Shown here in pieces: positions 6,830 to 30,529 of a stretch of 64,000 nucleotides of DNA. The DNA comes from Mytilisepta virgata (taxonomy: Eukaryota; Mollusca; Bivalvia; Mytilida; Mytilidae). A program made the translations under genes and the position numbers. The notes below the pieces were generated by a model, which saw only the letters and a program-made list of their open reading frames with translations, searched no databases and was not told the origin of the DNA. The stretch lies in the NCBI GenBank assembly GCA_028015205.1, contig CM051521.1, positions 105,376,513-105,440,512 of the forward strand, in the 5' to 3' direction. The first letter of the stretch is position 1, and every line of letters starts with the position of its first letter.

Positions 6830-6838
6830 GTATAAATA
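6830..6838 (+). promoter_or_regulatory. TATA box of gene 1
   Basis: The sequence 'gagtataaataatt' lies about 50 bp upstream of the first ATG (6884). This is the expected spacing for transcription to start near 6860 with a short 5' leader. No competing TATA-like site lies between it and the ATG. Confidence 0.55.
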
Positions 6839-6883: not shown

Positions 6884-7863
6884 ATGTTAAACATGGATTT
6901 AGTGTATTCATTGTTTTTAATTGCAAGTTATATACGACTGTCATCTGCAACATATTTTTCTCATTATCATCATCACCGACGTAACTGTCATCTTCGGCAT
7001 CACAATCCTACTTCAAGATTGTCTCCTCAACATTTTCCTCCGAATTATATCACGGCACGTATACCTCTGCCTCATACAGGACAAAGATACTATCCACGCA
7101 ATCCCGTTCCTCCTAATGTATTCCCTGTTGGCACTGTATATCCAGCAACAGGCCGCCAACTTCCGAATCCATTAGATGATAAAAATACGTATGATCTTCC
7201 ACCGTGGGAATCAACAGCTCCAATATTCAACAATGCCGGTCCATTTCCAAATGTGGATAACATTATTTCTAAAGTTCCAACAAGAGGAGATACAGATATA
7301 AACACTGTTAATCTTCCGCCATGGGAATTGTCAGCTCCAGTATTAAAAAATGCCGGTCCATTTCCAAATATGGATAACATTATTCCTAAAGTTCCAACAA
7401 GAGGAGATACAGATATAAACACAGTTAATCTTCCGCCATGGGAATTCTCAGCTCCAGTATTCAACAATGGCGGTTCTTTTCCTGATGTGGATAATATCAT
7501 TCCACAAGTTCCAACTGGGGAAGTAACAGTGATGCTACCCCAGCCTCAACCAGTTCCAACAAAACCAGATGTTGGTAATGTTGAAATTTTGGTGAATCCT
7601 GAACATTTTCCCGTAAATCCAGAGTTTGTTCCGATCAATCCTGAACCTTTTCCAATAAATCCTAAACCTTTTCCGATAAATCCTGAACCAGTGAATCCAG
7701 TCAAAGGAATTAACGAAGGAAAAAAGCCTATAGTAGTGGTGACAGATCCGCAGCCAGTGCCAACAAATCCTGGTAGTGGTGTTAACAATGGTGATAGCAA
7801 CATACAAGGGAATTTACCTCCTCCAATTGTCCCTATGGTTGAGGATAAGGGTTGTCAAGAAAC
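6884..7863 (+). CDS. Gene 1 exon 1
   Basis: Codes for the signal peptide, His-rich patch, 39-residue repeats and first Cys of the module. It ends at 'gaaac|gtaag', phase 2. The reading frame would hit a stop inside the donor (ACG TAA), as expected for an exon running into an intron. Confidence 0.85.
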
Positions 7864-9539
7864 GTAAGAACTTTGTATTCCTTAAGTTTTCTGCTTGCTA
7901 TTTATTCTATACTTCTACTTAAAAAACATATATTTTTGCATATTTGAAATTTAGACGTCAGTAATGCAATTTTTCTGATCATGGTAATGTGTAACACCTT
8001 AAGAGTTATTGGGCAACGAAGATTATTTAAAGGGTATCTAGAACTGCAGTTAACCTTTACAACAATAAAAGAAAAGCCTATGAAGCAATTAATAAAAAAC
8101 CCGTTATTTTATTCAAAATGTTGTTTCTTTGTAGAGGTTGTGATGTTGGAAGTGAATGTGTCTATGAAAACAGCTATATATGTCCATCAGATAAGATCGA
8201 CCTCCCTTGTCAATGCCAAAAAGGTACACACTATAATCAGCCATTTTATCCCTGAAATCAGAACGTCAGAATCTAAAGAACGACTATAAATGTGACAATA
8301 ACGCGGTTTTCTTGAAATATTTTTAAACTTGATTTAAAACATATTTTGTATATTTTTGCTTGTCATATAAGAATGTAGAAATGCCAGGAGTACGTGATCT
8401 GATATGTTAATTTCTAACTCTATTACACATAAAACATCGAATGTCAAATAAACAGAAACTGCAAGCATCAAATAGCATACGATTCTAAACTCGTAATTAG
8501 TCTATTTGTCAAAGAACAGGACTACTGAAATGAATAGGCACAGACATACGTGTAATTGAGATACCAGCGACCAGATCGTGATGGGGTCCTGGAACAATTT
8601 AAAAATTTACTCCAGGTATTCGTTCTTACAACTGTTGGAGTAGTTTTTTTATGTTAAGAATAGTATACAGTCATCTATTCGCGAAATTTTCCTGCACTTG
8701 AATGAAAATTCTAAGGTGAAAGATAATTTATTTTACTAAGGAAGTCAACTTTAGAGATTTTTTTATTGATGGAAAAATATTTATTTCTAAACTTATAGGA
8801 TGCCGTGTGCAGTATACCTTTATACCATTTGGAGGTACTACAATTGTGGATATATGTGGAAGTTATTGCACTTGTAATAGTTTATTCGGAGGGGTGAGTT
8901 ACATGTTATCAATCCGCTTTACTCGAAATGAAGTATACTTGTGATAGGCTAAGGAGTATTTAATAGTTTAAACTGTTTCAAAAATATTAAAACCGGGTGC
9001 TACTTAAGATGGTCTTTCCATGCCTGTTAAGTAATATGTTTAGTTACATGAATCCTACTTAATTAGGATTAAATAGATTGAGATTTTTTTCGACTTCTAC
9101 ATATAAACAAAATAATAAAACAATTTCTATTCTCTGCTCAAAGCAAAATTGTTTAAATCTGCATTTTATATATTTACAGGAGAATTGCACCTGGATTTCC
9201 TGTAACCAAGATCAACCTGCAAACACATCATCACCAACTGCTGGCTTAGTATTAGAACCCGTTCTACCTGAATCAATAGACAATGGTCCGTCGCGTGGCG
9301 ACTTTCCATTCAGTGTCCAAAATGGTCAGGATCCATCCAAAACAGACAAGAAATTGACATTTCCAAAACAGGACTTTGTTCCACCAATCCCATTTTTAAC
9401 AGACAATAATATTGGAAAGTTTCCAGGCGCTAATAAAGTTGTCAGTTTGGGGAAGAATGGTCCCTTACGACCAACCCAAACACCAATGAGTATGAATACT
9501 TTACAAAAGGATGCGATGGTCCTCCCAAGTTTTAAATGA
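6884..9539 (+). CDS. Secreted RGD protein with 12-Cys VWC-like module (gene 1)
   Basis: Four-exon gene, 507 codons: 6884-7863, 8135-8223, 8799-8893, 9180-9539. All junctions are GT/AG and the phases agree (2, 1, 0). A hydrophobic signal peptide ends near ...LSSAT. A His-rich patch (SHYHHHRRNCHLRHH) follows, then three 39-residue repeats with LPPWE, GPFPN and PTRGD motifs, then FPINPEP-type proline repeats. The 12-Cys module spans the end of exon 1 to the start of exon 4; its second half has the C-x3-C-x-C ... C-x4-C spacing of von Willebrand type C domains. The tail contains GPSRGDFPF. Extracellular matrix or adhesion role is inferred from the signal peptide, RGDs and repeats. It is the first of three tandem paralogues. 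ATG 6884 or the in-frame ATG at 6893 could start it. I recognise no named orthologue. Confidence 0.85.
7170..7522 (+). repeat. Three 117-bp coding tandem repeats in gene 1
   Basis: Each unit encodes 39 residues of the type NLPPWE-SAPV-NAGPFPN-DNIIPKVPTRGDTD. Units 1 and 2 end in RGD (7283-7291 and 7400-7408, exactly 117 bp apart). Unit 3 has lost it (PTGEV). Units 2 and 3 are the closest pair at DNA level. Confidence 0.85.
8135..8223 (+). CDS. Gene 1 exon 2 (89 nt)
   Basis: Acceptor 'ttctttgtag|agg', donor 'aaaag|gtacac'. Codes for G-C-x5-C-x7-C-x8-C-x-C, the first half of the Cys module. It has the same length and phases as exon 2 of genes 2 and 3. Confidence 0.85.
8799..8893 (+). CDS. Gene 1 exon 3 (95 nt)
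   Basis: Acceptor 'aacttatag|gatgc', donor 'ggaggg|gtgagt'. Codes for G-C-x17-C-x3-C-x-C plus eight residues, the VWC-like half. Confidence 0.85.
9180..9539 (+). CDS. Gene 1 exon 4 (terminal)
   Basis: Acceptor 'atatttacag|gagaat', stop TGA at 9537-9539. Opens with the last two cysteines (ENC-x4-C) and continues into a Pro/Asn/Lys-rich tail with RGD at 9294-9302. Confidence 0.85.
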   Translation, partial: ENCTWISCNQDQPANTSSPTAGLVLEPVLPESIDNGPSRGDFPFSVQNGQDPSKTDKKLTFPKQDFVPPIPFLTDNNIGKFPGANKVVSLGKNGPLRPTQTPMSMNTLQKDAMVLPSFK

Positions 9540-9706
9540 AGAAATCCATTTTTATCATCGGATCATTTTAATTCCATTCCTTATTTATTAATTTCATACT
9601 TTCTAATTTATTTGAGCATTTCATCACAAAGTGCTAAATATACACTAGCTTTTATAGTTTTTACATCTTGTACAAATGTATCTTCTCACAATATGTTTTG
9701 TTATGA

Positions 9707-9712
9707 AATAAA
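9707..9712 (+). terminator. Gene 1 polyadenylation signal
   Basis: AATAAA lies about 170 bp after the stop, followed within 15-25 bp by 'ggttattttttttgtctttg', a T/GT-rich downstream element. Confidence 0.6.
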
Positions 9713-10217
9713 TGTTGATGGTTATTTTTTTTGTCTTTGATCATTCGAAACAACAACAACACATTAATCAAATTAATAGACAAATTCAGAACATAAACTA
9801 TTGGGATATTGTATACGAACTACACAGTGTCATAACTAAATATCTTCAACATGCCGATGTGGTATTTTGAACCCCGTTGAAAAATAACCTCGGTCAGGGT
9901 CATTTTTGACCTCCGTTACACCGCCGAGACTTTCTTTTGTAAAAGAACATAATATTTCCTTTGGCGAAATTAATTCTTAAATTCGTTTCCACTTCAGCAA
10001 ATGGAAAACTATGTCCTAGACGATGAGAACCAATGAATACATATACTATAACTCTATCAGGTCAGACACATCATTTTTGAAGGGCGAGGTATATTTGTTA
10101 ATTTTCGGCGTCGTAAACTTTTTTAAAAACCTTAATAACTTTTCACACAGAATACCTAGACTTAAGGTCCACAGATTAATTATGATATAAACTTTGCGGC
10201 AGTATACTTGTCTTGTG

Positions 10218-10890
10218 ACCTTGACCTTGTTTGACCTCTTCAACATTTGTAAAATCTGCGTCCAAGTTTCGTGATTAAGTCTTTTTCTCAGCAACTTTAA
10301 TATTAAGACCCACAATATTTGGTCTATATATAGTCTTAGCGGGTACATGTCAGTCTAACACTGTCTCTGGACCTTGACCTCAATTTCATACTTGAGAGAC
10401 TTGCGTCACATTTTTGTGATTAAATACATTTTTCAGCAACTGTAATACCTAAACCCACCATATTTGATCTATAGATAGTTCTTGGTCGGTATATGTCAGT
10501 CTGACCCCTATCTCCAGACTTCGACCTCAATTTCATGTTTGAGTGACTTGCGTCACATTTTCTTGATTAAGTCAATTTATTTTCAACTGTAATCAATACC
10601 TAAGACTACAATATTTGGTCAATAGATAGGGTATGTGCCAGTTTGAAACTTATCAACCAACCTTAACCTCATGCTTGAGTGACTTTAGTTACATTTTCGA
10701 GATTAAGTACATCACTCAGCAACTATAATACCTAAGCCCATTATGTTTGGTCTATATATAGTTCTTGTTTGGTGAATTCCAGTGTGACACCTATCATCCG
10801 ACCTTGACCTGAATTTCATGCTTGAATTTTCTCTATTAGGTCGGCCTTTGTAATACCTAGACCGATCATATGATATCTACAGACAGTTCT
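10218..10890 (+). repeat. Satellite-like tandem array, ~145-bp unit
   Basis: Units begin 'accttgacctcaatttcatgcttgagtgac' and contain 'gtgattaagt...cagcaactgtaatacctaa' and 'tatttggtctatagatagttctt'. Unit starts are near 10218, 10371, 10517, 10660 and 10801, spacing 141-153 bp, with the last unit partial. Divergence is high. It may belong to the ~160-bp satellite family known in bivalves; that is a suggestion, not a match I could test. Confidence 0.75.
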
Positions 10891-11070
10891 TGTTGGGACG
10901 TGGTGTGGTAAGAAAGAAGTAAAATTAAGTTTCCAAAAAATTGCTTCATCTAAAAAAAAACTGCCGGAACATCGAAGAAGACTTCATAGATAATGTCTAT
11001 TCACAACGAATGTTTGGTGTAAATATTAATAAAAATCTACTTGGAACGTTAATGTAGACAGTTTTCTTTT

Positions 11071-11215
11071 AGTAGAGCGACAGTATCAGACTGCAGCTAT
11101 GAGAACCTTAGGTAGATTTACAATTAAAACGAGCACAATCTGACCCTGATATCTAAATTATGTACTCTCCAGTCTAATTTTGCAGTTCTAGCAAGCTGTC
11201 AGTTTTATGTTGCAA
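11071..11215 (+). repeat. Dispersed repeat, copy 1 (pair with 23752-23890)
   Basis: The stretch 'gagcgacagtatcagactgcagctatga...aaaacgagcacaatctgacc...atctaaattatgta...gcagttctagcaagc' recurs with modest divergence near 23752-23875. Confidence 0.65.
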
Positions 11216-11639
11216 AAGTATTTTAAAATTCATATTTTATTGTATATTGACTACTGTATTCTAGTTTGACAGAAAGGTACAAAAAAAAGAATTCAGATCG
11301 AATGACCAAGCTAAGAGAGCTACAAGAATTATAATTGAATGCCACATTTTAACGTCATCTAGATTTTTTTGACATTGAACTGGTTGCAATATTTAGAAAG
11401 AATGAAGTATGAGTAAAGCTTTAAGTGGATTGTTCCTGATTATGTGTTTTTCTATTCAAATTATAGTGAGCTCAAAGGTCATACTTGCACTCTTATTCAA
11501 AAGTGCTTGTATTATTATTAGTTATACCTAGACTAAATACATTTTTTTTTTTATAAATATCGGCAATAGAAACTGAAGCGATGAGAAATTAAGAAAAGTC
11601 CTCCATAAGACCAAAATCATAAATGGGTGGGTAATATGT

Positions 11640-11742
11640 ACAAAAAATAACCCGAATTGTTATAAAAAATATTAGTAATAAACATACAACACATAATGTA
11701 AGGTCAGTGATACGATCCATACCATAAATGGGTGGGTAATTG
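11640..11742 (+). repeat. ~100-bp duplicated segment (pair with 12013-12107)
   Basis: The block 'aataacccgaat...ataaacatacaacacataatgtaaggtcagtgatacgatccataccataaatgggtg' is repeated almost exactly at 12013-12107. The second copy stops where the 'gtccgcccgtc' repeat begins, so this is probably part of a larger dispersed element. Confidence 0.7.
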
Positions 11743-12106
11743 ATCAATATGTATAAATAATCGGTAGACAAAATAAGTCACAACAGAAATTAGCTTAAAC
11801 CTTAAGCTATAGCTGTTTGGCTAATGCAAATGAATTGTATTAAAGGTATATATACCTTATACATGAAGTTAAAATATCATGTGTTTAAAGGTGACAAAAA
11901 TACTGTGCACCATATTTAAACATTATAGAAAATATTCTTTATTTTTAGATGATTTTCAGACTATAATATATATTTGGGATGGCCTCTAATGAGGGTTGCC
12001 CTGGAAATCTTCCTAAAATAACCCGAAACATTATAAAAAATATATAATTAATAAACATACAACACACAATGTAAGGTCAGTGATACGATCCATACCATAA
12101 ATGGGT

Positions 12107-12845
12107 GTCCGCCCGTCTGTCGCACCGTCCGTCTGTCCGACCATCTGTCAGTCCGTCCGACCTGTCCGTCTGTCCATCCATCCATGCACCTTGTAAGTGC
12201 AACTCCTAAACTGTGCAATAGATTTTGATGAAACTTTGTGTGTAGGTTGGTTATCATATGTAGATGTACATGAAGCAAGATACCCATCACCGGATGCTTG
12301 CAAAGGGAGATGATCGAACATAAGGGTTTTACATGTTTAAAATTTGTAAGCACAACTCCTCCTAAACTGTTCAATGGATTTTGATAAAACTTTAAAGGAC
12401 GGTTGGGTATCATATGTAGATATGCATGAAGCAAGATAATTACCGCTTGATGCTTCCAAAGGGAGGTAATTCAACTTAAGGGTTTTACATGTTTAAAGCT
12501 CATTCTTAGCGCAACACTTCATAAACGGCTTATTGGATTTTTATTACATATACCTGCAGATGTACATTAAAGATGGTTGCTGTCCAAAATATGGAAGGGA
12601 AGATAATTCAACTTATGCTCTCAAGCATTGGTCAGAATGAACTTTACAAAGCATTTGATGTGACCTTAGTAACCTCTTATAAACACGTTATTAGAATATA
12701 TTAGAATGTTATAATTCTCATGTATACAGATGAAACAGTATTGATTTTAAACAATACATAGATAACTTGCTGATATACCAGTATTCCAAAGTTTCAAAGT
12801 ATTGCAAGCGGGGGGTATCACTCGGTGAGGTCACTTACAGTTATA
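12107..12845 (+). repeat. Dispersed 'gtccgtcc' repeat, copy 2
   Basis: Same block order as 835-1425 but with an extra ~125-bp internal unit; the 'gcaactcctcctaaactgttcaatgg' block occurs three times in all. It ends 'gcaagcggggggtat' (12804-12818), which is inverted relative to the 'atacccccagc' start of copy 1. No coding potential shared between copies. Confidence 0.75.
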
Positions 12846-15091: not shown

Positions 15092-18000
15092 ATGAAGTTT
15101 TATTTTGTTTCCTATATATTTTTTGGATTAATGTGGCTTGTTTGTAGTGGACAAATAACAAAAGAAATCCAGAGGAGGCGTGTGAAGCATATAAGTACAA
15201 AAATTTATAGACCAACAAAAGAAATGTATGCGAGATATTTGAGTTTGAATCCGCCGAGATTTCCTCCAACTCTAATTCACACACGCTTGCGAGTTCCATA
15301 CGACGGAAAAATAAAAACCAGAAAATGGAAACCTCCGAATCTGTTTATAAAAAAAGATAGAATAGGATACAATTTCCCTGTTAGGAAGGAAACTTCAAAT
15401 AAAAAAGGGAAACCATCACCAAAGTTTAATCCAAAAACAAAAAAATATTTCGACGGAAAGGGAGATCCAAGAATAAATCCTGTCAGAAAGAAAATAATTA
15501 TGAAATATAGAAATGTCCCATCAACAAAACCTATATTAAGACATACTACGACGACTAGAAAAAAGAAGAATTTTACAAAACCTGTCCCAGTAACAACGAC
15601 ATTCAAACCTTTCATACGGCTTTTTGAACCAGTTACAAGTTTTATACCTCACATTCGGAGAATAGTAACAAAACCGTCACCTCAAGTAGTTACGATTAAT
15701 TATACTACAAAGCCTCCATATATAATTCCTTTACCTCATATTGATGAACAAGTTTTCGATATAACAGGACCTAAACTCATGGAAACCACTGTTCGACAGA
15801 CACCAACCGTAACGATTACAACGACAAGCCCAAGTCGAAGAATTTTTAATCATCGTCCTACGACAAGAAGACAATCAATTCCTCCCATAGTTTTAATAAG
15901 ACCAAAGCCTAAACCCAAAACAACATTACCACCAATTTACATTCCACAGATTCCACAAACTACGAAGCCACCGGCGACTTTGCCACCAATAATAATACCA
16001 CCATTACGACCAGCTTTTTTTGAAGAGGCACCAAATCTACCAAAACTTATTAACAAGGACATTCAACGAGTAAAGATATTAAAAACAAAAGAACCACTAT
16101 TAAATAAATCGGATACGAGTAATGTGCAAAATATACCAACAACTCCATCAGCTAGTGTACAAACAAGTCAAATGACAATAAAAACATACCCCAAAACTAT
16201 GGAAAACACGGGTCCAGTATCATCTACATCACCATACCTTTATATTACTGACAACAACACTCCAACAGTGACATCATCTACTCCATTATGGACAACAGAC
16301 AAAAACCAAAGTACCACGTCAGGTATAATCAGAGATTTTACACGGAAACAAGCTACAACAAAACCGATGATAACAACTACGTGGATTACAGGAAAAACAA
16401 AACAGCCTATTATATCACAAGCAACGTCTAAAGGTCCAGTCAGGACAACACATTTTCAGGTTCCAAATATCATACCAACTAATACAATCCTGCAGTCAAC
16501 GACACTTTCTGATAAAACTACAACAAAGACTGTAACAAGTACAACGATTCCGCTTGTGTCGTCAAGCTATGTGAGTACGAGTCATGACACAACAAAATCA
16601 AGTACAGTGAAACCTTACATTGTAACACAAAATTTGTCAACATTTAAACCAATAAGAGAGGAAATCGGAACAACAGACGGCAGTATACAAAGAAAAACGC
16701 CAAAACCGTTCGGTCAAAAACCTTCTACAACTGTGAAATCGACTGAAATTTCTACGACAAACATACCATACCTTAGTACGAATGTCATATCAACAACTAG
16801 CAAAGTAAAGGAAGTTCATGAACCGCGTGGCGATATACCCACTACTACAGACGTATCAAACTTTGATATAAAAGTTACAGAAAAGGACAGTAATACTAAC
16901 CCTGTATTTGAACCACGTGGTGACCAAATCTTCACAACCGATTTACCATACGTTACTACAAAAATCATATCAACCGAAAGTAAAACAAAACCTAATTTGG
17001 AACCACTCGGTGATAATACAGCAACAACCTCTGACGTTTCTTTCCTTCCAACAAAAGTAATAGAAACAGAAAGTAGCACTAAAAAGGTGCATGGACCACA
17101 TGTTGATATTATAACCACCCATAGTGATGCATTATACATTAAAACAGAACAAACAAAAGTAGAACTTAACACCGAACAGACCTTTGTACAGAATGGTGAT
17201 AACATAACAACCACTCCTTTTTCTAACCATAGCACAAAAGGTACAACAATAAAAATCAACACAACTCCACCATTTGTGCCACGTGACGATCAGATTTCGA
17301 CTACTACAGAACCATTCAAAATAAAGCACAGTTTAACAGTAATGGGTATCCCACTGTATCTACCAATGATTGCTGATCATATGCAAACGACCACTAAGGA
17401 AACCAGAACGATTAAGGGTATCCTCGTGCATATTCCGGAGGATACAACAAACTCGGATACACTTGGTGAGAGTACAACCACAGAGGGAAATTATGTTGGG
17501 GAAGTTAAGGTAATACAACAGCTAATCCCGTCTGTATTATCTCGAAGTACAACACCAGTAACAATTACGGAAAAATCAATGGAGACAACAACTTTACACA
17601 ATTCAGTTTCATCAATAACAACATCGCACTCCTCAAATAAAGATTTAAATTCATCTGCTTTTACAACTACATCTGTAAAGTCGTCTTCAAGTACAGAAGG
17701 CACACCAACAATACCACTCCATTCTACAACAAGTGACAGATTAATTACACCAACACCAAAAGATGCAATAACCTTGGCAACTATCATTTCTCCAAGAATA
17801 ACGAACAAAAAGTCGAGAAAACCAACAACTCCTGCACAATTCACAACTATATCAACTACTAGAACGTCACTGACCTCCGGGGAAGAGGATAATAACGCCA
17901 CTCCAAAACAACCGGCTGATAATTCTACCAGTACAATGTCAACAACTGAGGAGACTAGCAGTATATCTGTGTCAACATATGATAATGAGAAATCCACCGG

Positions 18001-19356
18001 TATTCCCGTACAAAACTTCTCTCCTGGGAAATTTGCAAGTACATCTGTATCAACGACTCCAGTCGAGGTATTCACAATTTCATCTTTTCCAACGCATACT
18101 TCTAAGAAAACTGATGACGCGCAAAAGGAAAAATCGCTAACTGAAAAGTCATTTAGTACAACCATGGTTGTGACGATTCCCTCAGGGGAACCACAAAGTA
18201 CAACTGTGTCAACGACTACTTTCGATAAATTTGCTAGTATACCGTTATCAACTTATGTTGCTGAGAAAACTACACTTTCGCTTAGGGAATCTGAGAAGTT
18301 TTTTGGTAAAACTACATCTGAGATGACTTCCTTCGAGGATGCTCCCAGTACAGCTGCTTATGAAAAATATACTAGTACTCCATTATCAACAGATGCTACT
18401 AAGATTATTACTGGTCCGATAAAGGAAAGCTTAAAAACTGAAATGTATAGCAGTTCAACTATGTCTATGATAACACACCCTCAGGAACTCCCTAGTACAA
18501 CAATTTCAACGACTGGTGGTGATAAATATACTAGTATACCCTTATCAACAGATGCTACTGGAAACACTACTCCATCCTTGAAGGAAATATTAAAAACTGA
18601 AAATTCTACCAGTACAACAATGTCTTTGACGACACCGTATAGTCAACCTCATAGTACAACTGCTTCAACGACTACTGGTGAGAAATCTACTGGTATACAT
18701 GTATCAACTGATACATCTGATAAACCAACCCGACCAATATCTACTTCTGCTCCATCTACAAGTATAGCTATTTCAACAACTACTACATTGGAATCTACGG
18801 GTAGAGATGTTTCATCGATTTCAAGTCAGCAATTCACTCATACAACACCGTCGACAGGTACTGTAGCTGAATCTTTTGATATACCTTTCTCAACGCACCC
18901 TGGTGATATATCTACTGAAACTCTTATTACAAAACCAACCAAGGTTTACTCAGTCGCAACAAGTACTACAGTGGAGTCCATAAGCACTAATATGTCAGAA
19001 AGTAGTCCCGGCCACTCTTCTGGCACAACAGTGACAACGAAGACCACTGATGACTCTGTACCAGAAATAAAAACTAGAGACAAGCCAATTACCAACAGTA
19101 ATGACACTATAAGCCTAGATTTTAGTACGGCTAAAGCAAATGATTACAAAACAAGTACAGAATCACTTCCTATGATACCACAGACTACAGTCAACAGTAC
19201 AATAGATCCAATAAGTAGTTCACAGGAAGTGGGTACAACGACTTCAACTACCACAGAGAATACAATAAAAGATGCATCAACTCAAGTAAATCAAGATGTT
19301 ACAACAACCATGAAAACCAATCCATTTACAAAGGAACCTGAGAGTTGTATCACATT
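15092..19356 (+). CDS. Gene 2 exon 1 (4.3 kb)
   Basis: Single very long coding exon. It ends 'tgtatcacatt|gtaagt', phase 2, with the in-frame TAA lying inside the donor. Carries the signal peptide, basic stem, mucin region and first module cysteine (ESC). Confidence 0.85.
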
Positions 19357-22300
19357 GTAAGTATAAAACTTCTAAAGACCAACATTTCAACCCATCAATA
19401 CCCATTTATCAAACGAAACTTCAAAGTTTTAATTTTAACATATACTATAGTTTCTGGTGTTGCAACAATTTTAAATACAAACTGTATTGAGCTAGTTTGA
19501 GATTACTCTGACGTCAACCGGCATCTTTTAGATTGGCTTGGGTCGTTTTTGCGCCAGAGAGCACTTCGTATCTAATACTTGGAAATAAGGCTGTTATCGA
19601 CAATTAGTTTTCTAACTACTAAAGCATTTAAACCTTACATGACCATTTTTCTCTTAAAGAAGCACTGGTTCATAGTTTCAAGTTTCTCTTATCTATTAAG
19701 AATTTAAATAAAACAACTGCTTGGTATAAAGATAGTGAAGTTTTCAATTTGCCTGGTCAAAAACTTGCGGAAAATAAGTTTTGGGAATAAATGTTAAAAT
19801 GGTCAGAGAAATGAAACAAGGTTTATCTTGGCAGAAATTAATTATAAAATATAAATCATTGTAAATGGTTTTTGGCAATTTTTTACATGTGGAGTACGTT
19901 CTGATGTCTCATTACCCAAGCTTATTTAAAAAGGGGGCCAGTTTCAAGGTGTTGTTTAACCTTCTTTGAATGGGACTTTAAATCTATCTTTGATATCTAA
20001 GGAACGAGATTTAGTTGTAGATTAATGTTAACTGATATAGTAGGTTTTAATTGTAAAAAGTAATCAAACTTAGAATTCCTTTTCATACTACTTTATCCTT
20101 TTGTAATCAAAACAAGTCTATCGTGTGTCACAGATTTTCCAAGAACTGATTCCTTGATGGAAATGTCACGACTTTAATTCCTCACTCACATTTCAAACAT
20201 ATATCAGGTATATTCTTGAAGTCAACAATGATCAAACTTACAGAGGGAAAATTTGAAATTAAACCTGTTCATCAACGATGGCGTCTTATTTTTTGCCAAA
20301 ATTACTTGATTACAGACAGAAAACGGCATTTCTGCCTTTGTTAAAAAGTGAGAAAAAGAATAAGAACATTCAATACATTTAATTATTTTAGCTAAAAGAA
20401 ACAAAATGTACTGTTTTATAGATATTTTACGGACATTTTACGATATTCCAGAGGGCCTCGGTGGCCGAGTGGTCTAGGTAGTTCGTCATGACTACTACTG
20501 ATCACTAGCCTGTCAACGCTGGGGTTGTGAGTTCGAATTTCACCTGTGGCGGGGTGTGTTCGACTCCGATCTTAATTGACAAGGATTGCCAATTTTCCTA
20601 CCGAAGGTCGGTGGTTCTCTCCGGGTACTCCGGCTTCCTCCACCAATAAAAACTGGCCGCCGCTAAATGGCCAAAATGTGCTGAAAACGGCGTTAAACCC
20701 CAACTAAACAAACAAACAAAACGATATTCCAGGATATATGCGACAAACAGTGGGAAGAACTCAATAAGGGTTGATTTTTTTACTTTTCTCCAATCATTTT
20801 TCCCCCATAAGTGTGCAGTGATTGAAACACTGCGTCTTGGATTTGCATTTTTAAAATATATTTATTTCTTTAGTGGATGTCCAAAGAACAAGCAGTGTGT
20901 TACAAAAAATAATACGATGTGTTTGCAGGGCTTTTCAGAAAGTAACTGCTTTTGTAAACCTGGTAAGTAAACTATTCTGCACAATATTTTAATTCGATTT
21001 ATATTGCTGTATTGCTGTATTACTTGTTTGGAGATTCTCAAGTACAGCTTTTGGGTATATATTAGTCTAAGGAAAGTTCTAATTATGCGCTTTAAGGACT
21101 TAGCATATGTTGTTCTTCTAAACTTTTTGATGTACATATTTCACATTTTATAGATACTTTAATGTATGTTTATCCTTTGTCCATCTGGTATATACTAGAC
21201 AGAAAAAAAAACGAAATTCAAGATGAAATCAATATACAGTGTCATAAAATAATAAGCATTTTATGAAAAAGAAAGGGAAAGAACAACACCTATTAAATGT
21301 AATTACATATTTTCTATAAAGATACATGTTTTATCATGTTTTCAGGATGTAAGTTTGAAAATATGTACCTTGCTATAGGGCAACCAGTAGTGATTGATCG
21401 TTGTGGTAATTTGTGTTATTGCAGTACAGGAGGATTGGTTAGTATACTGTACTCCTTGTAATACTATTATCATTCATACTCTTCCCGTGATTTTTTTTTC
21501 ATTTTCAGTAATTTACACAAGATTTTATTCACAAGTGTATCATGTCTAAATCAAATTTATAGAATCGTAACTACCCTCGTGTATTAGACTTTAGCACTGG
21601 ACTTCTTTGCTGGAGGTCACTGGTTGTGTTCTCGTTAGATTTTTATTTATTGTTGTGGTGACGTAGGCTTTAATTCGATTCAAGCAGTATTTGTAAACAA
21701 AAAGGACAATTTTTATTAACTATAAAATTATATATAATTGTTTCCAATCATACTTTGATGCAACCACGCGTTTTTATTTATTCGTGAGGTATATGGAAGT
21801 AAGTTTGGTGAAAATCCCCAGAATATATATATTGAATGATGTGCTAACGACAAAATTTGACCTGTAGTTCGTTGACATTTTGAGTGACGTTTGACATCTA
21901 AGGAATCTTTGATCGTACTGCAGATATGTGCTATTGCATAAATTATACCGTCAAAGTATGTAATAAACATAAAAAGAACATTTGAATTTTCGCTTTTTAT
22001 CGTAAATTATGTTAAATTAAACTGCACGAATTGACTGCAAACTCGTCTCCCGAAATTCATATCTTACCAACGTAGAAGTCTTAAAAGGTAACAAAAAAAT
22101 TGTGCATTAAAATCACATATATCAATACCTTGTTAAAAAGAATCTGAAAAGATGTAACGCAGCCTTTACGAATATACTCATCGAACTTATCACTATTAAC
22201 AGTACGCCAGCCAATAATAAAAAAAACCTTCATGTGAAAGTGTTTCAGTGCTACTTCGCATTGAGACAAAAACTGTTAATCTTCTTGAAGCTAAAATAGT

Positions 22301-22670
22301 TATCACCGCAGACATAAACTTTTTTTTCAAGTATCTTAAATTGTTTATGTCATATATAGTGTGTATTATTTTTATGCTCCCTTTCCAGACTGCCTGTACA
22401 AAAATGCCATGCACAAGGAGCAAGTATGCTACTACAACCCCAAATCCGTTTAAGCCAGTAAAGTTTAAACCAGATGTAAAAGACAGAGGACCAACAAGGG
22501 GAGACTCACCATACTTTTATGTAGATAACAAAAAGTCTGTAAGAGTTTATGGTTTACATTTTCCAGAACAACTGTTAGCATGGCTATCTCCATTTTCGCC
22601 AGAATTTCGAGAAAATCTACCGTCATCTGGAATAAAAGAAATTTCCATTGCAGATTTATTTAAAACTTGA
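15092..22670 (+). CDS. Secreted Thr-rich mucin-like RGD protein with 12-Cys VWC-like module (gene 2)
   Basis: Four-exon gene, 1575 codons: 15092-19356, 20874-20962, 21346-21437, 22389-22670. All phases agree (2, 1, 0). The signal peptide is MKFYFVSYIFFGLMWLVCSG; the start is the first ATG after an upstream stop-rich leader. A basic Lys/Arg/Pro stem covers residues ~25-190, a Pro/Thr region to ~330, then about 1000 residues of Thr/Ser (mucin-like, many O-glycosylation sites). Within this, ~30-residue repeats at ~565-760 carry RGD at 579 and 609, and ~50-residue STTMS...TSIPLSTDAT repeats follow. The 12-Cys module is near the C-terminus, followed by GPTRGDSPYFY. Probably a heavily glycosylated extracellular matrix or mucus protein; tissue role unknown. 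It shares intron positions and the Cys module with its neighbours. Confidence 0.85.
16770..17340 (+). repeat. Six ~30-residue coding repeats with RGD and decayed RGD
   Basis: Units have the pattern TTS-VPYVSTKVISTESKT-P-EPRGDxITTT. The tripeptide sits at nt 16826, 16916, 17006, 17099, 17192 and 17282, that is at residues 579, 609, 639, 670, 701 and 731, spaced 30-31 residues. It reads RGD, RGD, LGD, HVD, NGD, RDD in that order. Confidence 0.8.
18160..18760 (+). repeat. ~50-residue mucin repeats in gene 2
   Basis: Four degenerate units share 'TTMSxTTP...PxSTTxSTTxxDKYTSIPLSTDAT' in broken form, at about nt 18160, 18300, 18450 and 18610. This shows that the mucin region grew by internal duplication. 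Confidence 0.65.
20454..20720 (+). mobile_element. tRNA-derived SINE (META-like tail), full length
   Basis: The head 'ggcctcggtggccgagtggtcta' holds a pol III A box (TGGCCGAGTGG) and 'gagttcgaatttc' a B box, as in a tRNA-Ser/Leu-type gene. The tail carries 'ccgaaggtcggtggttctctccgggtactccggcttcctcc', then 'aactaaacaaacaaacaaa'. It is flanked by a 12-bp target-site duplication 'acgatattccag' at 20440-20451 and 20721-20732. The tail block resembles the core of bivalve META-SINEs. It lies in intron 1 of gene 2. Confidence 0.85.
20874..20962 (+). CDS. Gene 2 exon 2 (89 nt)
   Basis: Acceptor 'tttctttag|tgg', donor 'cctg|gtaagt'. Codes for G-C-x5-C-x7-C-x8-C-x-C, same length and phases as exon 2 of genes 1 and 3. 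Confidence 0.85.
21346..21437 (+). CDS. Gene 2 exon 3 (92 nt)
   Basis: Acceptor 'gttttcag|gatgt', donor 'ggattg|gttagt'. Codes for G-C-x17-C-x3-C-x-C and STGGL. It is one codon shorter than in the paralogues, which changes the next Cys spacing from 8 to 7. Confidence 0.85.
22389..22670 (+). CDS. Gene 2 exon 4 (terminal)
   Basis: Acceptor 'ccctttccag|actgcc', stop TGA at 22668-22670. Starts with the last two module cysteines (C-x4-C). Contains RGDSP at 22497-22511, then a hydrophobic/aromatic tail. Confidence 0.85.
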   Translation, partial: TACTKMPCTRSKYATTTPNPFKPVKFKPDVKDRGPTRGDSPYFYVDNKKSVRVYGLHFPEQLLAWLSPFSPEFRENLPSSGIKEISIADLFKT

Positions 22671-23010
22671 AATTAATTATTTACACTTTGGAGAAAGTAT
22701 TCCAGTTTCTTTTATCTGATATAGAACTGAAAGAAAGCTGCAGATTGGAAAAAGAACCATGTAACGCAAGACGTAATTATGGGAAAGGAAACCGTATTTT
22801 GTAGTAACGAATGGTTTCAAGTGACATTTTTAATTGTTGAATGTTCATGAAGGTTTGTCATGGATAAAACATTTAGATGGTGTATATGTTTTATGTGTTG
22901 GATTATTTATATGACAAATATTTATTGTTGAAACACGTTTTGATGCAAACAGAATGAGAATGACACATTAATGGCTGATTGTTATAGTCCCATTTTCATA
23001 CTTTGTACAA

Positions 23011-23026
23011 AATAAAATAAAATAAA
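23011..23026 (+). terminator. Gene 2 polyadenylation signal cluster
   Basis: Three overlapping AATAAA hexamers ('aataaaataaaataaaataa') lie about 340 bp after the stop. Confidence 0.5.
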
Positions 23027-23751
23027 ATAAGTTAATGCCTTTTTAACTAATATTTTCGATTTACTTCGTCAATTAGCAGGATTTAATTTAACACTGAGTT
23101 TGTATATATCGGTAGTTAATTTGTTTTAAAAAGAAGACGCGACTAAACAATAAAACATAATTATCACGATGAAATAGTTGTAATAAATTTATGAAAGAAG
23201 TGATTTGATGTATAAATTCTTGTCTCAAAATCCGTACAGTTACGTGATAAATTTCAAGGAAATGGTCAACGCTATTGTTGCTAATCATCTTAAATTCATG
23301 GTAAGGTCTTCAATCTGGAGAGAAATCTTGTATCCCACTGACATGATTTTGTCCGACAATCTCACATTTAATTCCCAAAATATTCCGGACATATAAACAA
23401 TCACATATTTACATTTATTTTAGATAACTGATACAAAGTAAAATTCCCATCTCAAAAATATCTATTTCCTCAGTATAAACCATGTTTGAAATTCAGTGTA
23501 ATTCAGTGTACATATCACAGCTTGTACGTTTTGCACGAATTTGCTATCGGCTAGAAGATTTGAACAACAGAAACCATACGATTACTGGAAAAAAAATTAT
23601 TACAGGGATATAGATTTCACAAGCAGCTTATTGCCTTTAAAAAGTTTTATAATAGATATAATTTGTCTAGACATCCAGCTTCTAGAAAAACACTTATCAT
23701 GAACGGGTTTCTCATCCTAGTGTTATTTCAGATTTTTCATTTAGGAGAGCG

Positions 23752-23890
23752 ACAGTATCCGACCTGCAGCTATGAAAGCCTTAGCTAGTTTCACAGTTAA
23801 AACGAGCACATTATGACCGTGCTATCTAAATTATGTACCATCCACTGTAATTTTCAGTTCTAGCAAGCGGTCACCTTATTAGTAATCATA
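23752..23890 (+). repeat. Dispersed repeat, copy 2 (pair with 11071-11215)
   Basis: The stretch 'gagcgacagtatccgacctgcagctatga...aaaacgagcacattatgacc...atctaaattatgtacc...cagttctagcaagcgg' matches 11071-11215. Confidence 0.65.
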
Positions 23891-26589
23891 CTTTATTGAT
23901 AATAATAATAATTTATTTCAGACATAAATAGTCCATAGTTATATACAAATATTATTAAAGTTTTATAATATACAAGATGAAAAATGAAGAATTAAAATAT
24001 CAATAAATATAATTGGAAATTCTAATTTGATTACATGTCAGTCAAAGTTCACATAAATCACATACTGGTTTTTATAGTGTGTACACTAGAGTGTCAGTAT
24101 AGATAAGGGGGAGGTTTGGGTACCCATAAAATCGGTTTAACTCCACCACTGTTCAGTGTCTGTACCAAGTCAGACTATCCTGACTCTTTTTTGTGTTCAT
24201 GTTTTGTACTCTTATATGCTATTTTTTTGTGCGTCGTTCTGTCAGTTTGGTTGCTTTGATTGATTGGTATGTCATTGTTGACCTTTCCTGTTATCCATTT
24301 TGTTGTTTAATGATAAATAAAAAAATGAAAATCAAAACCAGCTGAGGAAAATATAAGCATGGAAAAGGCTTTATTCTACAGATACTGAAAATGCCGATAA
24401 CTATGTCTCAAAAATTAGTGTTCAAATCTTTTACACAAAACAAGAATTAAAACGTTTTTAGTGAAACAAAATTATAAATTTATATCACTAGGTTTATCTA
24501 TAAAAAGAAATGTTTTTAGAACGGGAAATTCGAAAGTAAAGCCAATTTCTTATGACACGAAGGAAAAAGACTTACGTCAACTGTCGACGATATTTTAATC
24601 AAAATATTTATTGGCTAAAATCAAAAAGGAAGATGACTTCTTAGTAATTTTGTGCTAGTAATTTTTAAAAAGACAGATGCCAGGATATTTTTTTTCTGAA
24701 CGTAGCAGCATTCTTGGATGGCAGACAAGGTCGTTTGATATAATTTTGAATGTGGCATATTTAATGACCATTCCACCAAGTTTGAAAACAAAAGTCAAAG
24801 TGGATTAAGGTCAAAAGATTAATTCGAACATTTTACATTTCCTACATTATAACTTTTTTCGTCCTCCTTAGCCATGAAAATCTCATTTTGGTTGTTAGAC
24901 ATGGTTCTTAGGACCAATGCTGATCATTTTGAGGCACTTGTTAAATCCAGTGAAAGTGGATAAAAGCGCATTTTGGTCATAAAATTTTTTTTTTTTAAAA
25001 TAATTAAAAAAACAATAGACATATGAATAAATTATTAAAAGGAACAAAAAGTAAATACGCGGATATTTTGTTGGTTCCACCATACGGGTAGATATAAGGC
25101 AAAAATTGTCTCTTTAATTTAAATTTCATTGGGGTAGATGATTATATATACATTGTATATACAAGATGCAGATAATCCTTAAAGATAACATTATTGGGAT
25201 AAAGAACTAGGCATTTATTTCATTTCCTCTGAAGATACCCGTTAAAAACTTCACACGGAAAGAAGAACGAGTATTGTTTAACTATTAGAGGCGATAACAA
25301 AATATGAACTCAATCAATCAACCTCCGTCTGCTCAGTGACAGTATTAAAAATGCACGTTGTTAAAACATATCAGTAGCTAGTATATCTGTATTTGGGTAA
25401 AAATTATGCTTTAAAACTTTGCTGCAGTAAAACCATAAACGTCTGAGTTGTGCATAAGCCTATCCTGGTGTGGTTTTGGCCATTCATATTTTTTCATACC
25501 AAATTTTGAGTTTTAGTTTTAGCTTTTGCTAATTTCATCCTGCCTTACGTTTGGACAGAAGCATTACATGGTCATAATGGTATGTATTGTCGTGACGCCT
25601 GGGGTCTTTTATTTTCCGATGAATGACGTTCAGCGTACCCAGTAAAAGAGTGCCATTTTAAACCGTTAATTTCTTTCTTATTTTGCCGAAATGTCTAGTT
25701 ATTATGGAATTATAAGTAATAAGAGTTGTTTTTTCACAATATATCGGTGTATAAACTCGACCGGGTCATCCACAAACTAAACATAAAGTTCTTTGGGCAT
25801 TATTCAGTTTGTGAGTGAACTGGTCTCCTTTATACCTCGATAAATTGCTTCAAAACAACTCTGATTACTATAATAGATATATTGTGTTCTTTATTTTTCT
25901 GTCAGTTGTAGACAGTTTTGAGCGAATGGACAGACCATTTTATCTGGGCTCTGTAATCTTTTTTGTTCTTAAAATAAAAATGTATTTACCAAGAGAGACC
26001 TTGTTCCAAGTTTCAAAATTTTTGAGTCGTTTTAATAATAACGATAAACATTGGCGTAGCTTCCATCGAGGCAGTGAGGCAGTTGCCTAGCCAAAAAAAA
26101 TAAAAATTTAAATTTAACCAGTGATGGTCAACAGAGTTTATCGTTTCCACTGGATCTCTTAGGCCTAAGTTAGAAGGATAAATCAGTCAAAACGTCTCTT
26201 TGTCTCATTTTAAACAAGATTAAAAGTTTTTATAACAGATTGAATATGGTAAAATCCACAAAATAGCTCGATTAAATTGAGATTACCAAAAAACCAAGTT
26301 TCTAGTTAAGGAGCTGGATGTCTAAATGTATATCTCAATTGGCCACTATTAAAGAAATTAAATGACTGATAATATCTCGGCAAAAATGTACAGAAATCTG
26401 ATGCCTGGCCTTATATTGCGAAAAGTATCCGAAGTGTCACAAAACTGAAGGTTTTGTGTAGGTCGATACAGGTGTAGGGAATTAAGATAAAATCGGAAAT
26501 CTGGCAAAATCCTTAAAAAATTGTCCACGTCCTTTTTGGAAGGCGAAGGAAATAGTTGTCTCGCCTTTTGAAAGAGAGAAGCTAGGTTA

Positions 26590-26592
<3 letters not shown>

Positions 26593-26622
<30 letters not shown>

Positions 26623-26623
26623 T
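26593..26623 (+). repeat. (AAT)n microsatellite
   Basis: About ten uninterrupted AAT units. Confidence 0.9.
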
Positions 26624-27002
26624 GATAGAACAAATTAATTTCTGCGTTTGACCTGAAGGACCCGACTTCCGATTCCGATCCAATAATAGATACAATTACG
26701 TCAGTTGTTTGTGTTGGTATACACCTGCAACTTACAATTATTGTATGTTTATTTGTTTGTTTATTATGTAATCATGTTTTGCAATAAATGCAGGGGTCAT
26801 TTTATTACTTTGTGTACGTCTAGGAACACGATTAAACCGAAATATATAGCGACCATTGCCGAAGTACCGGTTAGTAGGAGGTCATTTTCGAATGATGACG
26901 TTATTGTAGACCGCGTGGGTGACGGTTTACTATAGTCAAATATACATATATATATATATTTTTGAACATTTTGTAATACACAAACCAGAATCAATTAGCA
27001 CA

Positions 27003-27325
27003 ATGGAATATTTCATATTAATTTTGGCTCTATTCATTTTGGCAAAATGTGAAGGAAATATATGGTCAGCACGGCCGCTCTATGTTGTTGAACGTTTTCC
27101 TCTACCAGACACAATCAAAAACGTAAAATTTCCTATGAAGAGTGCGACTTTTCAAACCGCTCCACTTGAACCTATTATTAAAACAAAGCCGTCGAGTACA
27201 CGTATCCCGACGTCAGAACCAACAAATAATAACGTGGATGTAACGCCATTACCAAAATTGATTAAAGCCATACCGAAAGAACATAAAGCGAAAATCAAAG
27301 CTCTTCACACGCCTTGTCATAAAAC
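27003..27325 (+). CDS. Gene 3 exon 1
   Basis: The ATG at 27003 follows an AT-rich leader and begins a clear signal peptide. An earlier in-frame start would place charged residues before the hydrophobic core. Ends 'cataaaac|gtaagt', phase 2. Confidence 0.85.
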
Positions 27326-30300
27326 GTAAGTAATATTGTTTATATACCTTACTATCAACATAAGAGTTGATCTATATCAGTTTCAACCCTTTTCGTGTTC
27401 GAAGAAAACGAGTCAAATTAGTCTTCCTATTTGGCATGCATTTACGTGTTGTATTCCTCACTGCTGTAAAATGCTCATAGCATATTCAAAATTGAATTTT
27501 ATATTAATAATCAGGATTATTTAGTTAAATAAATCTGCGTGTACAGGATAAACTTTTTAAAACCAATTTTGTACATTTTTCCTTCTTGTTTTTCGTTCTT
27601 TTATGATTTTTATTTATATATTTTTCAGTGGATGCGTAAAAGGATCACAATGTGTTTATGATAAAATGTGGATGTGTCCAACGTATATTCCAGATCTAGA
27701 TTGCTCCTGTCGACCAGGTTTGTAATTTTATATACATTAAAATGCATGCCTGACGCATAGTTCTATCTAAAAAAAATCAGACTTCACGATATTATCAAAT
27801 ATATACTACACCATTCTGGTGTATTGTTGTGGGTACTACTGAGTGGATTCCTCTAATCGATGTTACAAAGACCACAGGATAATTTGCTATATTATTTGGG
27901 ACTGACATGGAAAAGATATTTGATTCACCGTTCAGAAGCTTTCTGAAATTGAGACTCCTTTAACGGTGATGAGCTTTATGCAATTTTTGTAGTTTTGTGT
28001 TCAGTATGCCCTGTTTGATCAATCCTGTGATAAATTGTTCGTGAAAATGAAATACTACTGTAGTACATGTATTTCGTTTCCTGTAGTGCTAATTTTTCTG
28101 TACGTATAAATTGTATACATTTAAATTACTTAGAAATCATCATTACTTGGTTGACAGGTATGAAAAAACCGTTTCCCAAATGAAAATGGACCTGTTCCAT
28201 TGATATTACCCCTTCCTCATACCGGATTTGTCATGGGCAGCATGGCGGATGTCCTGCAGGAAGCAGATACTGCTTACTCTTCCAGATCACCTAAGTCTAC
28301 CCCTGGTTTTTTGGTGGGGTCCATGTTGTTCATATGTTTTTAGTTTTTAATTGTAGTACATGTATTGTTTTGGTCTTGTCTTTGTTGTTCTCCGGAGTTT
28401 GTCAGTTGTTACGATTTTTCTCTCCTTCGAATAACCCTTTGGTATTTCTTGACTTTACTTAGATTTAACGACCGGAAAGGTATGTATTCGTAGTTCTATT
28501 GTTGCTTTATGACCATACATAGAATTGTATATGGATCATATTCTAAGGTTGGTGTCTCCTCCGGTTTAAGATCTTTCTTAAAATACAATGTTATTCTTCC
28601 ATTCTCCATGTTTTTGTCCTTATGAACAACTGAAGACACATCATTTGCAGTTTGTATATACTCATGGTGAAGCAAATTCGCTATCATTGAATATTAACAG
28701 AAGCTTTTAACATCTAAAACCGGTGCAGTCTGAATGGGCATGAATGGCTCTTTGTCTTTGTTTCTGTTTGTCTGTCACATTATTAGAAATTTTTTTTTCC
28801 AAATTATATTTAATTGTAATAGTTCCTTTGGGCTCTTTTTCAAGATACAGTTCAATAAAAATTATTATTTTTCTGCTGTTAACTTCTAGGTTGTGTGGTA
28901 GGAAATACCTTTATAGCAATGGGGAAAGCACTCACTATGGACGAATGTGGTAACAGATGTGCTTGTCAAGATAACAGCGGAAAGGTGAGAGCAATACCTT
29001 AATTCTTGCATTTCAGAGAATGTTATAAATGTAGAGAAAAATAAACAAGTTAAAGTTCAGATCATTTACGGTAGGAGGTAACAAAATGGGATAAATGTTT
29101 GGTTTTTGCAAGTAATTGGTGCATGTCAGTTTCATCTGTATATCGAAAAATTGCAGTTATAAGATGAAACATTTATGTGTTGTAGTCTTCGGATGTGTTT
29201 TGTATCAGAAATATTTTGTTGTACCACGAACATTATCAAAGTTAAATCTTGCTCTATTTTTCATACAAATCTTAATTTTTAATAAAAAGGTAGCAATGTT
29301 TTGGTTTCGTACGTATTTCACCATTTCATACAGCAAGATAGAATAAAATTATACATATAATTTAAACTTCACATTTTGTCTCAATGTTGTTATTTGATTT
29401 TATTAGTTCAGCATGGAGGCTAACAAATAATATATAACGTTGTATAATTTAATTGTAATTAGTAGGTTTCAGTTGACAGACTTTTATTTTTGTTGCTTTA
29501 TGTACATATATATATACTAGTCAACAAAATAAACAATACATATAGAAATGCTTTTAACATATAAGTTTAAGAAACCACACAGATTTTAAAACTTGTCCTA
29601 TCGGTCTCACATTTTTAACTGTGATAATTTTATGTGAAAAACTTTGATTTTGTGCAAAAATCTTGAAGTCAACATGCCGAAATTTTTGGATCGCAAAATG
29701 CACTAAAAATTGTAAGTTTAACCAATTTTTGAAGCATTATCATCACTCATGTAAAATATTATTTTATTCCACAGAATTTATCCTTTCGATTTCAAGTGTC
29801 ACAAATTGCCCTAATTTTTGTGATTTTTTATTTTGACCGCTTTGCTATAGAAGTTCATAATTTACATATACAATGTATGTCCTAAATTCTCAGATAAAGA
29901 AAACAATGTGATTTTACACTGAAAATGAACTGACTATCGATATCAAGGGTCGAATTAAACATTTTTAAACAATATTTTGTAATAATATTTCAAAACTGTG
30001 TATCATTATTTTTGTTGGCCACTGTATAAAATGATTTATACATTAAAAAATACTTTTGCAATATATAAATAGAGTAGAGAATGGAAACGGGAAATTTGTC
30101 GATATATATTTTAAAATTGTAAACAAATTAATTTCAGGCTGTTTGTACAAAACGTTCCTGTACAAAGGAAATTGAAAATAAAGAGGCTAAAATGGATTCA
30201 CTCTTAAAATACTTAAAGAAATTAGTAAAGATAACGCTACAGGAGAACGAGAAACCAACGGAGGAGACAAATGTTCAGACCAGCGTTTCTGCGCCACTGG

Positions 30301-30434
30301 AAACCAGTGCAAGTGATAATTTACTAGAAAGAAAAACATCGTCAGACGATATAAAGATGTCACCGAAAATGGATTTTAACATTAAAACAAGATTTCCGTA
30401 CAATCCGAAAAGACCACTGTTTGTATGGACATAA
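27003..30434 (+). CDS. Small secreted protein with 12-Cys VWC-like module (gene 3)
   Basis: Four-exon gene, 267 codons: 27003-27325, 27629-27717, 28890-28984, 30138-30434. Phases 2, 1, 0 as in genes 1 and 2. The signal peptide is MEYFILILALFILAKCEG. A ~85-residue Pro/Thr/Lys linker follows, then the module: C-x4-C-x5-C-x7-C-x8-C-x-C-x3-C-x17-C-x3-C-x-C-x8-C-x4-C. The C-terminal exon is charged (a short amphipathic Lys/Leu stretch, then Glu/Ser/Thr), ending in KRPLFVWT. It has no RGD, mucin region or long repeats, so it is the most compact member and the easiest in which to study the module alone. Secreted; function unknown. Confidence 0.85.
27629..27717 (+). CDS. Gene 3 exon 2 (89 nt)
   Basis: Acceptor 'atttttcag|tgg', donor 'accag|gtttgt' (a weaker GT). 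Codes for G-C-x5-C-x7-C-x8-C-x-C. Confidence 0.85.
28152..28459 (+). mobile_element. Penelope-like element, 3' fragment D
   Basis: Starts inside the last codons of the RT (motif YEKTVSQMKMDLFH, then stop). It continues with the ~250-bp 3' tail that is also present, in reverse, at 5461-5715. Heavily 5'-truncated and non-coding in effect. It sits in intron 2 of gene 3. Confidence 0.8.
28890..28984 (+). CDS. Gene 3 exon 3 (95 nt)
   Basis: Acceptor 'taacttctag|gttgt', donor 'ggaaag|gtgaga'. Codes for G-C-x17-C-x3-C-x-C plus QDNSGK. Confidence 0.85.
29517..30024. mobile_element. Possible mariner-type MITE
   Basis: Imperfect inverted ends: left 'ctagtcaacaaaataaac', right end reading 'cagtggccaacaaaaataat' on the other strand. 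TATA flanks both ends, as expected for TA-targeting elements. About 510 bp, no ORF. It lies in intron 3 of gene 3. Confidence 0.4.
30138..30434 (+). CDS. Gene 3 exon 4 (terminal)
   Basis: Acceptor 'taatttcag|gctgtt', stop TAA at 30432-30434. Opens with AVC-x4-C, the last two cysteines of the module. Confidence 0.85.
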   Translation, partial: AVCTKRSCTKEIENKEAKMDSLLKYLKKLVKITLQENEKPTEETNVQTSVSAPLETSASDNLLERKTSSDDIKMSPKMDFNIKTRFPYNPKRPLFVWT

Positions 30435-30523: not shown

Positions 30524-30529
30524 AATAAA
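30524..30529 (+). terminator. Gene 3 polyadenylation signal
   Basis: AATAAA in 'acatcaataaaaagtgctg', 90 bp after the stop. Confidence 0.6.

Follow-up and report, generated by a model that had tools for sequence, protein, structure and literature searches.

The window is a 64,000-nucleotide (nt) stretch of the genome of the mytilid bivalve Mytilisepta virgata (C14:105376513-105440512 of its own 1.03-Gb assembly). It contains three adjacent genes, g1, g2, and g3, whose products carry a common module of 12 cysteine residues. Splicing shows that all three lie on the plus strand and are complete, with four exons each; they are located at 6884-9539 (g1), 15092-22670 (g2), and 27003-30434 (g3). All nine introns are GT-AG, and the intron phases are 2/1/0 in each gene. 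Exon lengths are 980/89/95/360 nt in g1, 4265/89/92/282 nt in g2, and 323/89/95/297 nt in g3. The four-exon structure, the phases, the 89-nt exon 2, and the 92-95-nt exon 3 given in a preliminary description of this DNA are thus reproduced. The proteins are 507, 1575, and 267 amino acids long, and each has a hydrophobic, signal-like N-terminus.

The exons of the three genes divide the module in the same way. In g1, exon 1 (6884-7863) encodes the start, the signal-like N-terminus, a His-rich stretch, three repeats of ~39 residues (two with PTRGDTD), a Pro-rich body, and Cys 1. Exon 2 (8135-8223) encodes Cys 2-6, exon 3 (8799-8893) Cys 7-10, and exon 4 (9180-9539) Cys 11-12, a tail with GPSRGDFP, and the stop. 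Exon 1 of g2 (15092-19356) encodes the start, the signal-like N-terminus, a basic conserved N-terminal region, a long mucin-like body that is rich in Thr and Ser and has two PRGD sites, and Cys 1. It is followed by exon 2 (20874-20962; Cys 2-6), exon 3 (21346-21437; Cys 7-10), and exon 4 (22389-22670), with Cys 11-12, a conserved tail containing GPTRGDSPY, and the stop. The smallest gene, g3, has a start, a signal-like N-terminus, a short linker, and Cys 1 in exon 1 (27003-27325), Cys 2-6 in exon 2 (27629-27717), Cys 7-10 in exon 3 (28890-28984), and Cys 11-12, a Lys-rich tail, and the stop in exon 4 (30138-30434). An AATAAA follows each gene on the plus strand (9707-9712, 23011-23016, and 30524-30529), and a TATA-like sequence (6831-6837, plus strand) lies 53 nt ahead of the start codon of g1; all four are pattern matches only.

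The genes were originally described as a trio. They are as described, but the array holds five copies of the module, two of which had been overlooked. Protein searches of the assembly locate U1 and U2 on the minus strand upstream of the window, with the same phases as g1-g3. U1 encodes 638 amino acids (exons C14:105355954-105354261, 105353217-105353129, 105351954-105351860, and 105350252-105350214), and U2 encodes 255 (exons C14:105366744-105366374, 105365947-105365847, 105365070-105364976, and 105364628-105364428). Exon 2 of U2 is 101 nt, i.e., four residues longer. The array spans 56,733 bp, with two genes pointing leftward (U1, U2) and three rightward (g1-g3), and between the start of U2 and that of g1, which face each other, lie 16.7 kb. 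A TATA-like box, again a pattern match only, is also found 53 nt before the start of U2; g1 and U2 are the two inner, divergent genes. In module searches of the assembly, in which the best candidates were scored and very distant copies could escape, all matches with E <1 fall inside the array, and matches elsewhere have E values of 2 to 8.5.

Relatives are present in Mytilus. P0001, an "uncharacterized protein" of Mytilus galloprovincialis (LOC143046928, 265 amino acids), aligns along its entire length to g3 (100% coverage, 58% identity). The alignment runs through all three junctions, from one end to the other, and so supports the g3 exon chain. Two unnamed products, P0002 from M. coruscus and P0003 from M. 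edulis, align to 98% of residues 1412-1575 of g2, with 72% and 71% identity, respectively, and since they match the joined exons, the exon chain of the C-terminal part of g2 is supported as well. Neither has a signal-like start, and both are probably truncated models. No g1 ortholog was found at E up to 10 among 39 candidates, with the g1 module region as query and proteins of ~279-887 amino acids eligible. In a tree, g2 groups with its Mytilus orthologs (support 100/99) and g3 with its own (80/75), so the g2-g3 duplication predates the split from Mytilus.

The module occurs once per protein, at residues 324-396 (g1), 1419-1490 (g2), and 105-177 (g3). Exons 2 and 3 and the adjoining ends of exons 1 and 4 encode it; it is 72-77 residues in size and has no adjacent Cys pair. 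A regular expression with the Cys spacing first proposed finds one match in each of the three proteins, in agreement with the common 12-Cys framework put forward for them. The six frames of the window contain three copies each of the Cys patterns of exon 2 and exon 3; 50 shuffles of the window's two-base blocks contain none, which excludes a chance origin. Between modules, BLASTP gives E values of 8.5e-19 (g1-g3), 2.2e-15 (g2-g3), and 1e-9 (g1-g2). By sequence comparison, the three modules are homologous. In a structural model of P0001, the module is predicted to be ordered (10-residue means of the predicted local distance difference test, pLDDT, of 79-84 over residues 111-180), and residues 18-105 and 215-265 have pLDDT <50. 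A helix is predicted at residues 185-212, matching the Lys-rich tail region of g3.

The second half of the module (Cys 7-12) has a recognizable, though distant, relationship. Pfam yields weak matches on eight modules: Pacifastin_I in four (best E 0.0012), TILa in two (0.002), VWC2L_C in one (0.028), and Metallothio_6 in two (0.91). The readable match positions fall in the second half. The Pacifastin (PF05375) scores of 15.5, 14.3, 13.0, and 12.7 bits are below the curated cut-off of 27.9, and the metallothionein match is taken as a composition effect. With hhalign, the second-half profile compared with 16 of the genome's own pacifastin domains scores 29.3. None of 240 controls, made by permuting every column except the Cys columns, reaches this value (maxima 20.1 and 19.5). 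Against 14 VWC domains of the genome the profile scores 21.9, and the control maximum is 29.4. Compared with each other, the pacifastin and VWC domains of this genome are clearly related (score 54.7). The second half is placed in the pacifastin/VWC superfamily, with pacifastin nearest, because no control reached the pacifastin score and one set of controls exceeded the VWC score. Judged by these profiles, it is a divergent pacifastin-type (VWC/FN1-like) mini-domain. The earlier assignment as VWC-like named the right superfamily but not the nearest member.

Other comparisons delimit this placement. VWC (PF00093) and SVWC (PF15430) are not among the Pfam matches of the spliced modules at E up to 10, and the 138 VWC and 8 SVWC matches found genome-wide at that threshold, exon by exon, include none in the array. 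Three large exon clusters (C14:32.02-32.08, 36.85-37.05, and 59.88-59.99 Mb) encode a VWC-like half-domain, C-x16-C-x3-C-x-C-x9-C ("C-[IV]-Y-[NK]-G-x-x-Y-x-Q-G-Q"). As a parent of the second half, this local set (15 domains with C-x16-C-x3-C, from the clusters at 32.0, 37.0, and 59.9 Mb) was rejected: the C-x3-C spacing is in common, but the score of 11.7 is below the control mean of 13.6. Many matches in C14:36.85-37.05 recur at equal scores on C59, which may be the second haplotype. A true pacifastin-type cluster is present at C7:52731878-52749240, with one 479-codon open frame containing eight domains, plus single-domain exons.

Among the PDB sequences listed for the module profile, 8 of 19 are pacifastin-type inhibitors and 9 of 19 are pancreatic-type ribonucleases (E 0.019-0.074); in another listing, all nine were ribonucleases. 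The ribonuclease match spans only Cys 7-11 of a different fold and is taken as chance. The listing alone proves nothing, because nine ribonucleases rank level with or above the pacifastin inhibitors. The second-half spacing C-x17-C-G-x2-C-x-C-x7/8-C-[TS]-x3-C is found in all eight modules. The pacifastin array is C-x(n)-C-N-x-C-x-C-x(n)-C-T-x3-C, and the genome's own 18 pacifastin domains have the C-N-x-C form. In the module, Cys 8 and Cys 9 are arranged as C-G-x2-C, mostly C-G-N-x-C, which is one residue too many for that array.

The first half (Cys 1-6) has no relative in the Pfam and profile comparisons. A likeness to TIL, suggested earlier, is not upheld, with a score of 13.8 that lies within the control range (mean 11.6, maximum 20.2). 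The suggested likeness to EGF is unproven: one Notch EGF chain appears at E 0.9 with a different Cys spacing, and the modules have no Pfam EGF match at E up to 10. FOLN (PF09289) has eight genome matches (E 1.7-9.4), none in the array, in a search handicapped by the location of Cys 1 on a separate exon. An origin by duplication of the second half was also rejected (score 10.3; control mean 9.5, maximum 13.4). No Pfam family was found to describe the full 12-Cys spacing, in line with the first description. No description of the module was found in the open-access literature; subscription papers and supplements were outside this scope, so absence from print is not established. As far as the open-access literature shows, the module family is uncharacterized, and the known relationship covers only half of the module.

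All five proteins are built alike: a signal-like N-terminus is followed by a low-complexity body of the protein's own, one 12-Cys module, and a short tail. The bodies differ gene by gene, in keeping with the original view of a conserved disulfide module carried by very different secreted proteins. Pro makes up 16% of g1, Thr and Ser 19% and 11% of g2, and Lys 12% of g3. U1 (Gln, Pro, and Gly at 12% each) and U2 (18% Gln, 16% Gly) have Gln/Gly/Pro-rich repeats. Within the mucin-like body of g2 (15092-19356) there are conserved non-mucin islands common to P0002 and P0003, e.g., KHSL-x-VMGIPLYLPMI and TRTIKG-x-x-VHIP. At the first of these, Mytilus has RGD and Mytilisepta virgata has RDD. A match to MKLP1 in this body (E 0.00039, below the cut-off) is taken as a composition effect.

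Two members of the array possess Arg-Gly-Asp (RGD) motifs, which the preliminary description, accurate for the genes and the module, had overlooked together with the strong constraint on the g2 tail. There are three in g1 (PTRGDTD twice in the repeat, PSRGDFP in the tail) and three in g2 (EPRGDIP, EPRGDQI, and PTRGDSP in the tail), where composition predicts 0.05 and 0.07, respectively (0.03-0.07 overall); repeat copies are not independent. P0002 and P0003 have two each, and g3, P0001, U1, and U2 have none. The tail RGD and its frame GP-x-RGD-x-P are invariant in g1, g2, P0002, and P0003. By sequence, g1 and g2 are RGD proteins with a conserved putative integrin-ligand motif. It had been stated that the proteins have almost nothing in common outside the module. 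This needs correction: the exon-4 tails of g1 and g2 carry a common RGD-centered block, whose alignment beats 1998 of 2000 shuffles (g1-P0002: 2000 of 2000).

By identity between g2 and P0002, the tail with GPTRGDSPY (81%) is the best conserved part of g2, ahead of the module (65%) and the body (36%). P0002 and P0003 are identical at 87/87 tail positions, 62/72 module positions, and 854/1114 body positions. For g3 and its ortholog the order is different (module 81%, tail 60%, body 49%). The g2 tail has no second genome copy at E <7 and no Pfam match.

We propose that these genes are a small mytilid family of secreted extracellular-matrix proteins from a divergent five-gene array. Tissue and function are what we infer, and we consider the proposal about equally likely to be right or wrong. 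The module would fold into a disulfide-locked knob near the C-terminus and anchor the body to partner molecules of the matrix, whether shell, periostracum, byssus, or mucus. The bodies would give bulk material properties and be free to diverge. The tail RGD of g1 and g2, with the body RGD sites, would let mantle cells or hemocytes hold the matrix via integrins. The loop from Cys 11 to Cys 12, although inhibitor-like, would be an inherited scaffold, with inhibition as a side possibility. The module is the common factor, and the disordered, repetitive, fast-evolving bodies fit the usual description of mollusc shell and byssus proteins. A study of a limpet shell matrix lists an uncharacterized "VWC/pacifastin" protein alongside Gln-rich and Pro-rich ones (PMC4094399), and oyster hemocytes are reported to bind RGD peptides (PMC9294365).

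Several observations weigh against this proposal. The reactive bond of a pacifastin-type inhibitor presumably lies in the loop C11-T-P1-P1'-x-C12, and Lys occupies the presumed P1 position in six of eight sequences, as an active inhibitor would have. RGD is missing from three of the five genes. It may also be non-functional where present, and in the g2 tail it sits in a block conserved throughout. With RGD masked, the g1-g2 tail alignment beats only 1547 of 2000 shuffles and g1-P0002 1973 of 2000; because the scores drop, the g1-g2 block is mainly the RGD motif itself. Finally, proteins of the family are not named in the accessible parts of a paper on mussel byssus and of two proteome studies of mussel shell (PMC6641155, PMC12607631, PMC4517812).

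A bolder form of the matrix proposal is tentative, and we would sooner expect it to fail than to hold. The array would be a mytilid-specific matrix-building kit, in which an undescribed six-Cys lobe and a pacifastin-derived lobe form a universal plug for five polymer bodies. Two members would be dedicated integrin ligands whose most constrained part is the RGDSP tail and not the Cys knot. If true, the kit would tie living mantle cells or hemocytes directly to growing shell, periostracum, or byssus. To our knowledge, the molecular basis of the attachment of mussel cells to their secreted extracellular materials is little understood. A body-swapping tandem family with a fibronectin-like RGDSP tail offers named genes for testing matrix anchoring and cell adhesion, and a pacifastin-type inhibitor fold has apparently been co-opted as a structural cap.

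The main rival is that the products are secreted protease inhibitors, the second half being a working pacifastin-type canonical inhibitor that the bodies only hold in mucus or shell matrix. The inhibitor and matrix roles are compatible. Pacifastin is the best match of the second half by the permutation controls, the Pacifastin_I matches, and the 8 of 19 PDB sequences, and protease inhibitors are reported from mussel shell (PMC5623705 and PMC4517812). The motif C-T-x3-C is kept in seven of eight modules (U1 has C-S-x3-C), in addition to the frequent Lys noted above. However, the Pfam scores are far below the cut-off, C-G-x2-C replaces the C-N-x-C of the genome's pacifastin domains, and the best-listed PDB matches are the chance ribonucleases. 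At the presumed P1 position g1 has Trp and U2 has Gln, and conservation in g2 does not peak at the loop. We regard a working inhibitor as doubtful.

Immune or humoral proteins, i.e., hemocyte-binding opsonins or antimicrobial precursors with the Cys module as effector, are improbable. Mussels have arrays of Cys-rich effector genes, including mytimycins, antifungal peptides that are likewise secreted and have 12 Cys in some variants (PMC8004829); the RGD binding by oyster hemocytes (PMC9294365) is also in favor. According to PMC8004829, however, a mytimycin is a 54-residue mature peptide with a core of 10 Cys, paired accessory Cys, and an EF-hand extension, none of which is found in the array proteins. 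The module is longer and without an adjacent Cys pair, Pfam detects no EF-hand in P0001-P0003, and the long Pro/Gln/Thr-rich bodies are unlike a propeptide. Signaling proteins, whose VWC-type modules would bind TGF-beta/BMP-like ligands as in chordin-like proteins, are very improbable; the second half shares a superfamily with VWC and is nearer to pacifastin. That the genes are a prediction artefact, with exons wrongly joined or copies non-functional, is scarcely credible: a g1 ortholog was not found, but five genes have open frames and common GT-AG sites, phases, and Cys spacing, and the Mytilus proteins match g3 across its junctions and the joined exons of g2.

The window also contains other features. 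Open reading frames at 32484-33218 (plus strand) and 5714-6055 (minus strand) end alike at the C-terminus (...YGV-x-SQLIR-x-SRAC...). Pfam finds a weak match to reverse transcriptase in the first (RVT_1, E 0.0067) and nothing in the second; on these similarities, both are classed as retroelement fragments. At ~28157-28203, in intron 2 of g3, the last residues RYEKTVSQMKMDLFH and a stop are encoded, as seen by eye. Because these equal the final residues of the frame at 5714-6055, a retroelement 3' end lies inside this intron. At 44769-49666 (minus strand) are two long open frames of 548 and 840 codons that are Ser/Arg-rich and coiled-coil-like, with no Pfam match over the cut-off. They are probably exons of one gene.

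Compared with known systems, the module resembles pacifastin in the six Cys of its second half, in a Cys 7-Cys 9 distance equal to that of the genome's pacifastin domains, and in the pattern D-x-C-(G)N-x-C-x-C-x(n)-C-T-x3-C. It differs in the residue added between Cys 8 and Cys 9, in Pfam scores below the cut-off, in an intron that separates Cys 10 from Cys 11, and in having a six-Cys first half fused to the second. Each protein also has a single module, which follows a long disordered body. VWC, TILa (the E module of VWF, FCGBP, and MUC2), and fibronectin type I are more remote: the module reaches no Pfam cut-off in the scores available, is without a second VWC subdomain, and has no detectable TIL in its first half. 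With the repetitive low-complexity proteins of mollusc shell and byssus, the family has in common that it is secreted and that Gln/Pro/Gly/Thr-rich bodies are joined to a small Cys domain.

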